Below, in pieces: positions 28,390 through 34,950 of a DNA stretch of 64,000 bases. The position numbers were made by a program, and so were the translations under genes. Within the stretch, counting starts at the first letter, position 1. Each line of letters starts with the position of its first letter. The stretch lies in contig NZ_JACDNP010000008.1 in assembly GCF_013839425.1 (NCBI RefSeq), positions 1-64,000 on the forward strand, in the 5' to 3' direction. The DNA comes from Halorhabdus salina. Its GTDB lineage: Archaea > Halobacteriota > Halobacteria > Halobacteriales > Haloarculaceae. Under the pieces are notes generated by a model, which was given only the letters and a program-made list of their open reading frames with translations, was not told the origin of the DNA and searched no databases.

Positions 28390-29199
28390 TCAGACTGTTT
28401 CGACGAAATAGTCGGTGAGTGGAGCGTGCGGCTGTCTTTCGACGCGCCAGTACACGAGATCCATCGCCAGGGCGTGGCCCAGTCCGAGGATAGCGGTCCC
28501 GAGGACTGTCGACAGAACGAGTCCCAGGAACGGGTCAGACGGAACGGTGCTGAGTCGTGCGGCGAAGTGACCGAGTACTCCCAGCAGGCCGACTGCGGGT
28601 GCTGTCCAGCGTGTTAAGCCGTGATGGCCGATCTGCTCGTTGCTCCATCGAATCGCTGCCAGCGGACCTCGACCGTCTCGAACGATGGTTACTGGCGCCA
28701 CGAACAACCGCCCGAGGACCACGAGTACCGCTACCAGGGCGATCCATCCGACGATTCCTGTCCCAGCGATTTCCCACGAGAACAGATCGGTGAGCGCTGT
28801 CAGGACTACCCCGTACAGACAAAGGTATCCGAACCGAGTGAGCGGGAATCTTCGGGCAGTCTGCGTTTGTGCTAGCCACCACCAGACGAGTCCGGCCGCG
28901 ACCGTGATCGAGAGTACAGCACCGCTCCAGAGTCCGAGCGTCCCCAGCAGAACCAACGGGCCCAAACCGCCTATCGCGGCAGGATCGAGCGTGGCGGGAC
29001 CGACCAACTGTGGCATCCCAGGGACTTTGACGAGCGAAAGCGGCGACAGGCGCGTCAGGTCGGCAAGCGGGATCGAGAGCTGTCGGTACCCGGTCACTGA
29101 TGCGACCGCGACCGTCCCGGCGATCCCAAATACTCCGGGATAGATCATGAACCCGAGTACCCTGCCCAGCCACGTCCGACGCCGCGTATCTTTCGTCAT
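28390..29199 (-). CDS. Polytopic membrane protein, second copy of the propeller/membrane module
   Basis: 269 residues with about six hydrophobic segments. The block RLFVAPVTIVRDGRGPLAAI followed by RWS is almost the same as RLFVVPVTIVRDGRGLPAAI-RWS in the membrane protein at 30707-31501. The overall layout also matches, so the two are paralogues. I do not recognise a named family; YIP1/DUF4013-like helical bundles are a possibility. Its ATG overlaps the stop of the preceding lipoprotein gene as ATGA (29196-29199), so the pair is translationally coupled. Confidence 0.8.
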   Translation of the reverse strand: MTKDTRRRTWLGRVLGFMIYPGVFGIAGTVAVASVTGYRQLSIPLADLTRLSPLSLVKVPGMPQLVGPATLDPAAIGGLGPLVLLGTLGLWSGAVLSITVAAGLVWWWLAQTQTARRFPLTRFGYLCLYGVVLTALTDLFSWEIAGTGIVGWIALVAVLVVLGRLFVAPVTIVRDGRGPLAAIRWSNEQIGHHGLTRWTAPAVGLLGVLGHFAARLSTVPSDPFLGLVLSTVLGTAILGLGHALAMDLVYWRVERQPHAPLTDYFVETV

Positions 29200-30566
29200 G
29201 GTGCCTCCAGTGCGACGAGATGCTTCCCGTACGGAAAGAGGAGTTTGTCATTCCCGACAACGGGGCGACCGGGATCAGCGTTGGCGGATGCCGAGAGTCG
29301 GTCGTACGTCCACAATCGATCACCACTCGACGGTTCCAGCGCGACTGCCCGGCCGTCGGCACGGTGCAGGTACAGCGCGTCGTCCGTCCCGGTGATTCGA
29401 GTGGTCGTGGGGAGTCGGCGCTGCCATTCGATGGCTTGGTCGTCCCGGTTCACTGCCAGACAGACGTCGCTGTCCGTCCCTTTGGTGTTCACCACCGTGT
29501 AGAGTCGCTCTGGACCAACGACGATGTCTCCGATCCCGGCGGTCGATCCAGCCAGTTGGTCGTCGAGTGCTGACGGTGCGTCGATGAGCGGTCGCCATTC
29601 TCCGGTTTCGCTGTCCAATGCGACGATCGAGGCAGTCGAATTCCCGGACTGTGACTCCCGAAGGTAGGCGATACCGTCCCGGACGGCAACGAGGGTGGTT
29701 TCTGCCCCGGTTTCTACAGTCCTGCTGATTCCTGTGTCGTCGAGTACTGATAGTTTCCCACCCGTCTCGGAACTGGTGGCGGCGAACACACGTCCGTCCT
29801 CGACACGGAGGCGGTCGACGGGGTGTGACACTGTCGTCTCCCACTCGGCACGCCTGTCGTCTGCGTCGATCGCAACGACGCTGAACGGACCTGTTTCACC
29901 CGGAACGACCGTCACTACAACGCCGTCTTCAATCCGTCCTGCGGCGGCGGTCGCATCGAAACCCCGACGCGAACCCGCCGTCCAACGTTTCGTCGTCCCG
30001 CACCAACCGTCGGCGTCGACCGACGGTGGTGGCCTGAGTCCTTCGAGGATGTCCCCTGCACTGCCCCGGTGGTCACGCATTCCGCGGCGGCGAGTGGCTA
30101 CCAGCGTGCCGTCTCGATAGGCGTTCGTCCGTGCGAATTCGATCAAGGCGTAGGTGTGATGACACTCCGTGTCGCGTCTTTTCCCTTCACCGGTCGTCGT
30201 GGCGTCATCCCGGACACGCCCGTCCGCCATATCGACGATCGTGCCGTCGATGCAGTAGGCCCGATCGTCGACGATCAATAGCGGCGTCCGAATTTCCCAC
30301 GTCCCTGGATCAGTCAGTGTTGCGTCGGACTGCATATCAGTTGCCCAGACGGATGCGTCCCACGCGAGTTGGGGCTCCTCGACCGGCGGGGAGCCGGCGG
30401 ACTTGAAGTACGTGGCTCCGGAATCGTAGCCAGCCTGGGGCCAATCCGTGGGGTTCGGGTTCGGCAGGGTTCCACTGCCCAGACAGCCTGCCATGACTGG
30501 GACTGACGCGCCGATCGAACCGAGAACGCGCCGTCTGGTAACTCCCGCTTCTGGGAACCAATCCAT
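29196..30566 (-). CDS. Tat lipoprotein with PQQ-like beta-propeller, copy B
   Basis: 456 residues from ATG at 30566 (MDWFPEAGVTRRRVLG). A Tat signal with lipobox (RRRVLGSIGASVPVMAGC) gives an anchored extracellular protein. The mature part starts with WPQAGYDSGATYFKSAG, the usual opening of haloarchaeal PQQ-like propellers. Repeats of the type VVAIDADDRRAEWETTV, IVALDSETGEWRP and AVALEPSSGDRLWTYD follow. The open frame extends to 31139 antisense to the preceding gene, but that part is a shadow. It is probably a surface binding or scaffold protein rather than an enzyme; no PQQ-dehydrogenase catalytic motif is seen. Confidence 0.85.
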   Translation of the reverse strand: MDWFPEAGVTRRRVLGSIGASVPVMAGCLGSGTLPNPNPTDWPQAGYDSGATYFKSAGSPPVEEPQLAWDASVWATDMQSDATLTDPGTWEIRTPLLIVDDRAYCIDGTIVDMADGRVRDDATTTGEGKRRDTECHHTYALIEFARTNAYRDGTLVATRRRGMRDHRGSAGDILEGLRPPPSVDADGWCGTTKRWTAGSRRGFDATAAAGRIEDGVVVTVVPGETGPFSVVAIDADDRRAEWETTVSHPVDRLRVEDGRVFAATSSETGGKLSVLDDTGISRTVETGAETTLVAVRDGIAYLRESQSGNSTASIVALDSETGEWRPLIDAPSALDDQLAGSTAGIGDIVVGPERLYTVVNTKGTDSDVCLAVNRDDQAIEWQRRLPTTTRITGTDDALYLHRADGRAVALEPSSGDRLWTYDRLSASANADPGRPVVGNDKLLFPYGKHLVALEAP

Positions 30567-30706
30567 GGGGGCGTATTGACAAAGATATCTTAAATATTCA
30601 ACGAGTCTTTCGGAAACAGGTGGGCTCTTTCGGGTCGGCTGATTGCCGACCGTCATAGCTTCGTTGTCGACGCCATCGAAAGCGGCCACGTCGCTCGTCG
30701 GTTGTC

Positions 30707-31501
30707 TCACTCCCGGAACGCAGCCGGGACCAGATCGTAGGTCGCACACATCATCGCTGTATACGCGGCCCCGAGGACCGTCGTTCCAAACACAGTGGCG
30801 AGGATTAGCCTCGTCGACTCGTTGGTCACGACGATCCAGGGCATCCCGGAAAACCAGTACTGCAAGAGCGCGAAACCGAGAATTGCGATCGTCACGAGTA
30901 CGTTTCGACAGACCGTCCAACTCCACCGGATCGCGGCCGGCAACCCTCGCCCGTCCCGGACGATCGTCACCGGCACAACGAACAGGCGCGTGACGAGATA
31001 TGCCACGACGAGTGTCACTGCAATCGGCGCTAGCCAGCCGGAGACCGGGGCGTTTGCGACCAATCCCGGAACCGAAGCGACGGCCGCTACGGCGACGTAG
31101 ACACCGAGCCATAGTAAGCGACGGCCAGGCGGGAGCCACCCGTCTGTCTCGGGTGCACTTCGCCAGATTGCCGTGGCGAGTGCGAGCGTGATCGCCACAA
31201 TTGCCAGCATGGCGCTCACAACGTAGACGGTAATCAGCGCGGGATTGAGCCCGAAAAACGTCCCCAGGAGGGGATGTGCGACGAGTGGACCGTTCGGCAC
31301 GAGCGATAGCATCGGATAGATCGGTCCCTGCCTCGGGAACGCGAAGGTAATCAGCGGCATCTCGACACCAATCAACAGGCCCAACACCAGACCTTGGACG
31401 ACTCCCAGGAACGCGAACGCGAGCACGAACGTTCGATTCTCGCGAAGGTATTGGCCGGTATATTCGAGCAGCCAGTGCAGTTTGAATGATCTGTCGGTCA
31501 T
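30707..31501 (-). CDS. Polytopic membrane protein, first copy of the module
   Basis: 264 residues from ATG at 31501 (MTDRSFKLHWLLEYTGQYL); the frame's extension to 31747 is a shadow of the upstream gene. It has about six hydrophobic segments and the signature RLFVVPVTIVRDGRGLPAAI, then RWSWTVCRN, shared with the paralogue at 28390. Its ATG overlaps the upstream lipoprotein stop by ATGA (31498-31501). About 140 bases separate it from copy B's start, room for a separate promoter. Role unknown; pairing with a propeller lipoprotein suggests a membrane anchor or transport partner. Confidence 0.8.
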   Translation of the reverse strand: MTDRSFKLHWLLEYTGQYLRENRTFVLAFAFLGVVQGLVLGLLIGVEMPLITFAFPRQGPIYPMLSLVPNGPLVAHPLLGTFFGLNPALITVYVVSAMLAIVAITLALATAIWRSAPETDGWLPPGRRLLWLGVYVAVAAVASVPGLVANAPVSGWLAPIAVTLVVAYLVTRLFVVPVTIVRDGRGLPAAIRWSWTVCRNVLVTIAILGFALLQYWFSGMPWIVVTNESTRLILATVFGTTVLGAAYTAMMCATYDLVPAAFRE

Positions 31502-32802
31502 GGTTCCCCTAGGGCAACTATCCCTTTCCGCTGGACGAACAGATACAACCGCCCGTCGCCGATTACTGGTTGGCTGATGGCCCCACCACCGTCTATGTTG
31601 ATCTGCCATCGGATGGCCCCATCTTCCATCGAGACGGCGAAAACATCTCCACCCTCGGTAGCGACGTAGCCAGTCCGGTCTCCGATGGATACGGAAACGT
31701 CCGAACTGGAGAGATAGATCGAACCAAACGCAACGGTTTGCTCCCAACGCTGTTTGCCACTGTGCCGATCGAACGCCTGGACCTGTATCAGGTCAGACGT
31801 ATTGTCGTCGGCACCTTCGGCCAATCCGACCGCTACCAGTGCAAGGTCTAGTCCGACGGCACTCCCCAGACGGACCCAATCCGCTGTAGAAACCTGTGCC
31901 TCCCACAGTTGTTCGAGTTGTTCCACGTCATATGCGCTGATCGTCGAGGCTGTTGCATTCTGCCTCGTTTCGACGTAGACAGTGCTGTCTCTTCCCATCA
32001 CCTGTTGGACTCCGCTGACGGATCGCTTCTGCTGGGTGTGGCCGCCGTCTGGATCGAGGACGTGAATCGTCGATTCGTCATCTTTCTCGACAGCTACATC
32101 GTCCCGCTCGACAGCGAGTACGATTCGGCCGTCAATCGCGGCTATCGATGGTGATTCTCGTCTTTCGAACCGTCGACGCCACGTTCGCCGCCCATCGTCG
32201 ACATCGACAGCGACGACTTCAACGGGATCATGACCGTGACAATAATACCAGGTTCCGTCGACGACTGTCTGGGTGAGGGCTGGCGAATATATTCTCGTAG
32301 ACGGTGTCGGGGCTGTACTCGCCCACCGACGTGGGACGGGGCTGCCGTCCGGATTGATTCCGAACGTATCCCAGCCGTACGGACTCCAGCCGCCTCCAAG
32401 GACGATGCCGTTGTCGTAGATTCGTGTCTCCGCTACCGCGAACAACCGACCGACGTTCGGGACGCGAAATTGAGTCTTGCCGGTGTCACAATCGATGCCG
32501 TGTAGCGAGAATTGCTCTGAAAACGATTCTCCGTCTCCGTCTGCGACGAGTGCGTACAGCGTCCCATCAGCGAGCAATAGTGTTCTTCCGGATCTCATTG
32601 GAACTGATCGGGACCACGCTATTTCGGCTGTCTCGACCGGACCGGCTGTCGGCGAGTAACTCGTTTGTCCCGGGTCGGATCGGGGTAGTGGCCAGTCAGC
32701 GGGACTGAACTCGGAACGGTTGGCAAGTCCCAGACAGCCCGAGGTTGCACCGAGGAGTGCTCCGACGCTGCCGAGAAGAGCTCTGCGGGACAGGCGGACC
32801 AT
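31498..32802 (-). CDS. Tat lipoprotein with PQQ-like beta-propeller, copy A
   Basis: 434 residues from ATG at 32802 (MVRLSRRALLGSVGALLG). Tat motif SRRALLG with lipobox ATSGC. The mature chain opens DWPLPRSDPGQTSYSPTAGP, parallel to copy B, followed by propeller strands such as VVAVDVDDGRRTWRRRF, VQAFDRHSGKQRWEQTV and GDVFAVSMEDGAIRWQI, ending RLYLFVQRKGIVALG. Homologous to copy B but well diverged, so the duplication is old. It is first in a run of four minus-strand genes. Confidence 0.85.
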   Translation of the reverse strand: MVRLSRRALLGSVGALLGATSGCLGLANRSEFSPADWPLPRSDPGQTSYSPTAGPVETAEIAWSRSVPMRSGRTLLLADGTLYALVADGDGESFSEQFSLHGIDCDTGKTQFRVPNVGRLFAVAETRIYDNGIVLGGGWSPYGWDTFGINPDGSPVPRRWASTAPTPSTRIYSPALTQTVVDGTWYYCHGHDPVEVVAVDVDDGRRTWRRRFERRESPSIAAIDGRIVLAVERDDVAVEKDDESTIHVLDPDGGHTQQKRSVSGVQQVMGRDSTVYVETRQNATASTISAYDVEQLEQLWEAQVSTADWVRLGSAVGLDLALVAVGLAEGADDNTSDLIQVQAFDRHSGKQRWEQTVAFGSIYLSSSDVSVSIGDRTGYVATEGGDVFAVSMEDGAIRWQINIDGGGAISQPVIGDGRLYLFVQRKGIVALGEP

Positions 32803-32989
32803 AGTATCTGTCCAGAAACTATCCCAAAGAATGTTCCGGATCGTTGTCCTGTCGCTGTCAGATGCCCGCCGAACAGGTGCCGTTTTCAGATCGATCTGAA
32901 CCCGCAGTAGTGCATTCAGGGCTTCTACTGAGAAGGCAATACCACTGCTCGACACAACCGTTGTCAGTCGGCCCCGTGACCGTGGAGGC

Positions 32990-33537
32990 ATGACTCGCCG
33001 GGTCGCAGACGCACTCGTCTTCCTTGCGCTGGTGAGTGCGAGTGGTGCCCTCGCCGTCGGACACGTCGGCGTCCCCTGGCTGGGGGCAGACGGCGAGGCG
33101 GTGTTCGTGGAAGCGCTGACGATCGTCGCGATCCTGGCAGGGGCGATCGGGGCCTATAGACTCGTACTCCGCTACGTCACTACGCACGCGGTGGACAAGC
33201 GCCGCCGTCACGACGCCCGGAACGTCCTCCGATTGGGTTTCGGAATCGTCGCCACCGTCGCTACGCTGGGCGCGCTGACCGACCAGTGGCTCGGGATGCT
33301 GGTCTCGCTTGGCGTCGTCGGCTTCGCCGTCACCTTCGCGCTCCAGCAGCCCCTGTTCTCGTTGATCGGCTGGTTTTACATCCTGCTCAACCGATCCTAC
33401 CAGGTCGGCGACCGGATCGCCATCGAGGACACCCGCGGCGGGGGAGACGCGCCCGCAACGCCATGTATGAGGCGATTCTCGAACGGTTCAACGACAATCC
33501 GGATCGCGTGGCGTTCCCGGTCAGTCGAAGTCGGTGA
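32990..33537 (+). pseudogene. MscS mechanosensitive channel gene broken by internal deletion and frameshift
   Basis: The first ~145 codons are a normal MscS start: two to three membrane helices, the pore-lining helix MLVSLGVVGFAVTFALQQPL and the beta-domain opening LNRSYQVGDRIAIEDTRG. The frame then jumps. Just after DTRG, another frame reads RARNAMYEAILERFNDNPDR then VAFPVSRSR and a stop at 33537, which looks like the natural C-terminal end of a MscS protein. The middle and C-terminal cytoplasmic domain (roughly 150 residues or more) is gone, and in the original frame translation runs out at 33550 with unrelated residues. No functional channel cage could form. It is probably a recent loss, since both ends are well preserved. 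Confidence 0.75.
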
Positions 33538-33598
33538 GTCCTCGTCTTGACACCCACACGACCGACGCTGTTTTGTCTTGTTCGCCCCTCCTGCCGGT

Positions 33599-34261
33599 AT
33601 GCCCACGGTACCGGAGTGGATCGAAGACTACGCGACTGTCGTCGGCCCGGAACCAGACGACGTTATCGAGGAGATGGACGAGTACGCCGACCGCGAGGGA
33701 TTCCCGACGGTCGGCCCCGCGGTCGGCGGCTGGCTCGAACTCCTCGCCCGGATGGTCGGCGCCGAGCGCGTCTTCGAGTTCGGCTCGGGCTATGGCTATT
33801 CGGCCTACTGGTTCGCTCGCGCGCTCCCGGCCGACGGCGAGATCGTCCTCACCGAGGTCGATCGGGACGAACTCGATCTCGCTCGAGAGTACCTTGATCG
33901 CGGCGACTTCGAGGCGACGATCCAGTACGAACACGGCGATGCCCTCGACATCGTCGACACGTACGACGGCCTCTTCGACGTCGCCCTGATCGACAACGAG
34001 AAGACCCGCTATCGTGAGGCCTTCGAAGCGATCCGGGAGAACATCTCACCCGGTGGGATCGTCGTCGCAGACAATGCGATCGCCGGCGGCTCGATCGACG
34101 CTGACGCCGTCACGGACCTGTTGACCGGCGACAGCGAGAGCGCCGACGAGATGTCAGAAGGGATCGCGACCTTCATCGAGGCACTACACGAAGAGTCGGA
34201 CTTCGAGGCGTCACTCTTGCCTGTCGGTGAAGGTGTCGCAGTCGGGCATCGCACCGAGTGA
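33599..34261 (+). CDS. SAM-dependent O-methyltransferase
   Basis: 220 residues from ATG at 33599 (MPTVPEWIEDYATVVGPEP). It is a class I Rossmann methyltransferase of the COMT-like group: motif I VFEFGSGYGYSAYWFA, the acidic end of strand two LTEVDRDELDLAREYL, then YDGLFDVALIDNEKTRY and SPGGIVVADNAIAGGS, where catechol-type relatives bind the metal. The substrate is unknown. It lies just downstream of the broken channel gene; nothing suggests a shared pathway. Confidence 0.88.
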   Translation: MPTVPEWIEDYATVVGPEPDDVIEEMDEYADREGFPTVGPAVGGWLELLARMVGAERVFEFGSGYGYSAYWFARALPADGEIVLTEVDRDELDLAREYLDRGDFEATIQYEHGDALDIVDTYDGLFDVALIDNEKTRYREAFEAIRENISPGGIVVADNAIAGGSIDADAVTDLLTGDSESADEMSEGIATFIEALHEESDFEASLLPVGEGVAVGHRTE

Positions 34262-34347: not shown

Positions 34348-34950
34348 ATGAGTTTGATGATCGACATCCGGAAACTCGCACTGTTCAACAAGATGGCAAA
34401 GGAGGGTGGCAATACAGTCGCCGACCACCTCAGCCAGATGACGGATATGGAGACGGAGATGGAGATTACCAAGATCAACTTCATCGACATCCCCGACATC
34501 AAGACCCACGTCGGCGACGACAAACAGATCGGCATCAGCATCCAACTCGAGGAACCGCCCCACGGGCACATTCTCTTTCTGTTGAACGCAGAGAGCGCAA
34601 AGGATCTCGCTCGCGGGATGATCGGTGATATGGGCGGAGCTGACCCGGACCAGGACGGATTTACCGAGATGGAGCGGTCGGCGATCCAAGAGATCGGTAA
34701 CATCATGACCTCTGGGTTCATCGACGGCTGGGCGAACGTCCTGGACACCACGATCGACATGTCCACGCCGACGTTCACTTATGGACCGGGCAGCGGGATG
34801 ATCGACGAACTCGTGGGCGATCGAGACTCGGAGATGGCGTTGATGTTCGACTCACGCGTCCAGGCGCTAGATTCGAATGTCGACGTCAAGGTGTACACGT
34901 TCCCGCAACTCGACGAACTCGTCGAGTTGATGCAGGCGATCGAAGCGTGA
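34348..34950 (+). CDS. cheC: CheC-family chemotaxis phosphatase
   Basis: 200 residues. Both CheC active-site motifs (ExxN) are visible: KEGGNTVADHLSQMT at about residues 15-30 and IQEIGNIMTSGFIDGWAN at about 112-130. CheC dephosphorylates CheY-P and, in archaea and Bacillus, works with CheD. No other che gene is adjacent, so it is an orphan copy. A TATA-like CTTATTAG at about 34307 lies 35-40 bases before the ATG. Confidence 0.9.
   Translation: MSLMIDIRKLALFNKMAKEGGNTVADHLSQMTDMETEMEITKINFIDIPDIKTHVGDDKQIGISIQLEEPPHGHILFLLNAESAKDLARGMIGDMGGADPDQDGFTEMERSAIQEIGNIMTSGFIDGWANVLDTTIDMSTPTFTYGPGSGMIDELVGDRDSEMALMFDSRVQALDSNVDVKVYTFPQLDELVELMQAIEA

Follow-up and report, generated by a model that had tools for sequence, protein, structure and literature searches.

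A recent internal deletion probably inactivated one of six MscS-type channel genes in a Halorhabdus species

We analysed a 64,000-nucleotide stretch of Halorhabdus salina DNA (hereafter the window) and found that one of the six MscS-type genes of this Halorhabdus species has, with a probability of about 0.86, been inactivated by a genuine and recent loss of 397 nt from its interior. The 186-aa ORF at 32990-33550 (+) starts as an MscS channel and, according to its translation, runs into unrelated sequence past ...IAIEDTRG; the C-terminus RARNAMYEAILERFNDNPDRVAFPVSRSR is encoded just downstream in another frame, with its stop at 33535-33537. This arrangement, first described in a sequence-only reading of the region, was recovered with the intact 314-aa orthologue of H. 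amylolytica (G001), which matches the window in two frames. Positions 32990-33442 matched its residues 1-151 (72%, E 1.5e-67) and positions 33418-33534, in the other frame, its residues 276-314 (87%, E 4.7e-15), and the two matches overlap at the junction. From start to stop the intact gene measures 945 nt and that of the window 548, leaving 397 nt missing; codons 1-149 and about the last 31 were retained, and codons 150 to about 282 were absent. As 397 is not a multiple of three, the end of mscS is shifted out of frame and the ORF terminates at 186 aa (Table 1).

Table 1. Features of the truncated mscS locus and of its neighbours in the window
Feature	Position	Strand	Basis
N-terminal mscS remnant, codons 1-149 (membrane helices, pore helix, first beta-domain residues)	32990..33437	+	72-81% identity to five congeners; PF00924 positions 5-31 of 68
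Deletion junction, ambiguous position, one short direct repeat copy kept	33429..33437	+	Breakpoint scoring against five congeners
C-terminal mscS remnant, about the last 31 codons and stop, in the frame of ORF 33286-33537	33438..33537	+	87% identity to G001 residues 276-314
Unrelated 37-residue tail of the 186-aa ORF, frame-shift product	33438..33550	+	ORF translation
O-methyltransferase, conserved downstream neighbour	33599..34261	+	PF01596, E 2.6e-25
CheC-like gene, used in divergence estimates	34348..34950	+	PF04509
PQQ/BamB-like beta-propeller gene, divergent upstream neighbour	31498..32802	-	PF13360; also upstream of mscS in G004

The window genome (G000), a 2.86-Mb draft in 25 contigs, was compared with six other genomes of the genus (G001-G006). 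The N-terminal piece found a match at E <= 0.001 in 38 of 59 genomes, its own and those of relatives, and was matched over all 149 residues in five of the six congeners. In four of these (G001, G003, G005 and G006) both pieces belong to a single frame of an intact 314-codon gene located at the same place. This comparison with intact relatives, which the sequence-only reading had recommended, bore out the out-of-frame internal deletion of the cytoplasmic part that it had favoured, and a frame disrupted here with intact orthologues in relatives is the mark of a pseudogene. When the full-length G001 protein was used to look for the missing piece elsewhere in G000, it recovered the two known pieces and, beyond these, just three weak matches to paralogues. 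A sequencing slip in a run of G was considered and rejected, since it would not restore the about 132 missing codons; the downstream part aligns to the congeners without indels.

An O-methyltransferase orthologue is present in all seven genus genomes, directly after mscS in each of the five congeners that carry the latter. Downstream of it, four of these five carry genes for CheC, UspA and a histidine kinase; in G005 the stretch examined ended before CheC, which lies about 4.7 kb farther along. A scan of 32780-33620 for promoters and terminators found none, using a bacterial consensus that says little for an archaeal host. We also observed CCGTTTT/CCGTTGT-like motifs at window 32958-32965 and 33567-33575, about 25-35 bases ahead of the start codons of mscS and the O-methyltransferase; they recur in congeners and are possibly a promoter element. 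On the upstream side, the PQQ/BamB-like protein of G002 (L162 3575-4930) starts like the window gene at 32802 (-) and its remainder resembles the gene at 29196-31139 (82%). Neither the second PQQ gene of the window nor the membrane protein lying between its two PQQ genes was found in G002 at L162; recombination between two paralogues appears to have fused them into the G002 gene.

The best-fitting breakpoint was 33429-33431 or 33429-33432 against G004, G005 and G006, and 33429-33437 against G001 and G003. The junction had previously been placed near 33433-33470; a junction is indeed present, but its scored position is at the left edge of that span. The ambiguity arises from the likeness of the two deletion edges. 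In G001 these read CACCCGCGGCG on the left and CATCCGCGGCG on the right, with an exact run of 8 nt and 10 of 11 positions alike overall; elsewhere the likeness amounts to 6 nt (G005), only 3 exact nt (G004 and G006) or an imperfect 7 of 9 positions (G003). Direct repeats at both edges in an undeleted relative, with one copy left in the window, are the pattern of a repeat-mediated deletion, the repeats here being those of other species. Two short direct repeats would have been joined by a replication or repair event, with loss of the DNA between them. Since such repeats are frequent, with 23-42 exact 8-nt pairs in each intact mscS copy, the edge repeat fits this mechanism but is weak proof of it.

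The loss appears to be recent. Over the last 31 codons, pN between the window and five congeners was 0.028-0.064 and pS 0.41-0.60, values comparable with those among the congeners themselves (0.014-0.079 and 0.35-0.66). In the first 149 codons, dN/dS was 0.16-0.25 between the window and its congeners and 0.14-0.34 among the latter once the near-identical pair G005/G006 was set aside. We examined 28 sites at which conservation reached at least 95% among the other sequences, and the window deviates at one of them (P136S); among 103 sequences including the window, 71 showed no departure, 21 a single one and 11 two to four. Compared with any single congener, the C-terminal remnant of 31 codons shows 1 to 4 residue differences, of which a T to R change alone is unique to the window. 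As both remnants are still patterned like a gene under purifying selection, these measurements agree with the earlier impression of well-kept remnants and a recent loss, and, judging from the sequences, decay has hardly begun. In codons 76-149, pN was somewhat higher for the window than for the others (0.037-0.062 vs 0.012-0.043, the pair G005/G006 again left out), a difference that may reflect chance or the onset of relaxation.

Translation is predicted to end 37 residues past the junction, giving a product without most of the beta-domain and the cytoplasmic cage. In the window ORF only positions 5-31 of the 68 of PF00924 were matched, at 20.0 bits against a cut-off of 20.2; the match in the intact G001 protein spans positions 5-66. 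The pore helix and membrane helices of MscS are present, residues 1-149 aligning to intact orthologues and to solved MscS chains; the complete beta-domain of a functional channel is absent, and the remainder of the alpha/beta cage sits in another frame. The 186-aa protein should thus form no working channel. The idea, put forward with the original description, that a short pore might still insert in membranes fared poorly, because an ORF that ends at the start of the beta-domain is unlikely to give a working pore. We consider it very improbable that the ORF persists as a short membrane protein or pore with a function, even though its N-terminal part has been well preserved and short proteins of MscS type are known from this genome (L004 and L005) and from the PDB (171-residue chains). 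These short proteins keep most of the beta-domain: L005 covers profile positions 1-57 and L004 7-61 of 68, vs 5-31 here, and the PDB chains align to profile position 177. Moreover, the two remnants are equally well preserved although the C-terminal one is no longer translated in frame, which implies that conservation reflects recency. Remnants free of decay would also be expected of an assembly or sequencing artefact, in which the cell holds the full gene and 397 nt were dropped from a draft of 25 contigs; a gap with N and adapter-like sequence in another genome (G218) indicates that such artefacts do occur in these data. However, the window contains neither N nor any match to adapter sequence at up to 3 mismatches, and the junction is interior to a contig of 130,726 bases. 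In addition, assembly collapse is not usually caused by repeats as short as 3-11 nt. An artefact is therefore unlikely in our view and, as assembled, the window mscS is an ordinary, recent pseudogene, so that annotation should label the 186-aa ORF a pseudogene rather than a small channel.

Close relatives have lost or disrupted this gene by different routes. In G004, TAG replaces tryptophan codon 163 and the remainder stays in frame. G002 has no orthologue of the gene: its flanks match the window up to about 32849 and again from about 33563, separated by 6 nt. Judged by CheC (98.5%), the histidine kinase (83%) and UspA (74%), G002 is the nearest relative of the window; the O-methyltransferase places it only slightly nearer (84%) than G001 (82%), and dS there is slightly lower to G001 (0.51 vs 0.61). 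The nearness at CheC and the histidine kinase, together with a whole-gene deletion that covers the place of the window deletion, would suit a gene already dead in the common ancestor, whose removal G002 merely completed. Against this, three neighbouring genes gave dS of 0.61-0.70 between the window genome and G002, and a neutral branch of 0.3 would lead one to expect about 21 amino-acid-changing substitutions in the 31-codon remnant, the Poisson chance of 2 or fewer being about 1.5e-7; only one change is unique to the window. We find an ancestral death scarcely credible: the remnant is too well kept for death since the split from G002, which implies that the gene was alive after the split and that the two losses are separate. 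The window, G002 and G004 look like three separate losses in seven Halorhabdus genomes, the window and G004 being one assembly each. That selection drove a parallel loss of this haloarchaeal MscS lineage seems to us quite unlikely; if it did, the valve would be costly in some habitats, for example as an ion leak or a virus entry point, and osmotic shock would be covered by the other MscS genes. The only mildly interesting point is the repeated loss within the genus.

A wider survey applied the orthologue profile at E <= 1e-40 to 391 genomes of the class, an even sample of a larger group. The profile matched in 161 of the 391, with internal stops not visible in six of these (G107, G115, G181, G267, G284 and G324), and nine genomes with partial or interrupted matches were re-examined. 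The orthologues of G348 and G299 contain TAG and, near the C-terminus, TGA, respectively; in G196 a disruption is suggested; the 5' part is missing in G027 and, along with a TGA, in G319. These five would be disrupted copies outside the genus. In G031, a genome 77% complete and below the cut-off, three in-frame gaps were found, and in Natrinema zhouii (L069) a stop lies in a divergent N-terminus. The matches of G151 and G376 begin at profile positions 53 and 69, which we took as different N-termini. A candidate for a like internal deletion in G218 (L174, G218:C4, about 2091) was rejected, given that an N and then adapter-like sequence stand at the join inside the orthologue; it is probably an assembly artefact. 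A CheC control matched in 316 of the 391 genomes with no internal stop among the matches listed; as that listing covers part of the matches and CheC has paralogues, this control is weak.

The search for other mscS genes, also recommended at the outset, led us to identify five further PF00924 genes in the window genome. Three (L001, L002 and L003) also match the C-terminal domain PF21082, and L002 lies at C24:67813, just past the window end; L004 and L005 are short and match the beta-domain and a helix family only. L005 (G000:C19:282968-286135, 1465-2007, -) encodes a naturally short protein of 181 aa counted from its first ATG; its beta-domain is nearly complete, no match to the C-terminal domain was seen, and matches with its profile range of 1-57 also occur in G003, G005 and G006. 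MscL was rejected as a back-up, with no match in the seven genus genomes (the control was found in 10 of 14 genomes). In a haloarchaeal model published in PMC4230888, MscS releases ions on downshock. The weight that the sequence-only reading gave to the loss for osmotic shock survival is smaller with five others kept. The presence of these five suggests that the loss is probably tolerated and that osmotic protection has probably not been lost, and thus that one MscS copy may be dispensable in a salt-in archaeon having several.

With respect to known systems, the N-terminal 149 residues align to the MscS family (PF00924), the window ORF reaching the solved chain 4hw9 at E 1e-4 and the profile of the intact orthologues reaching E. 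coli MscS 6rld at E 2.1e-16 (2oau is another E. coli MscS structure). In contrast to the family, the window gene lacks residues 150 to about 282 and ends in another frame. According to PMC4440785, overexpressed E. coli MscS still gives cells protection when residues 266-286 are deleted, so that channel function can survive a short C-terminal loss; far more is missing here. As for the mechanism, PMC3119063 describes, in Haloquadratum walsbyi and in Halobacterium strains, losses between direct repeats of 4-20 bp with one copy left. The window deletion is alike in that a stretch was lost between short direct repeats, one copy was left and the gene was truncated. The difference is that the comparison there was between two strains of one species, whereas here the undeleted state comes only from other species, so that the parental repeat is a presumed one.
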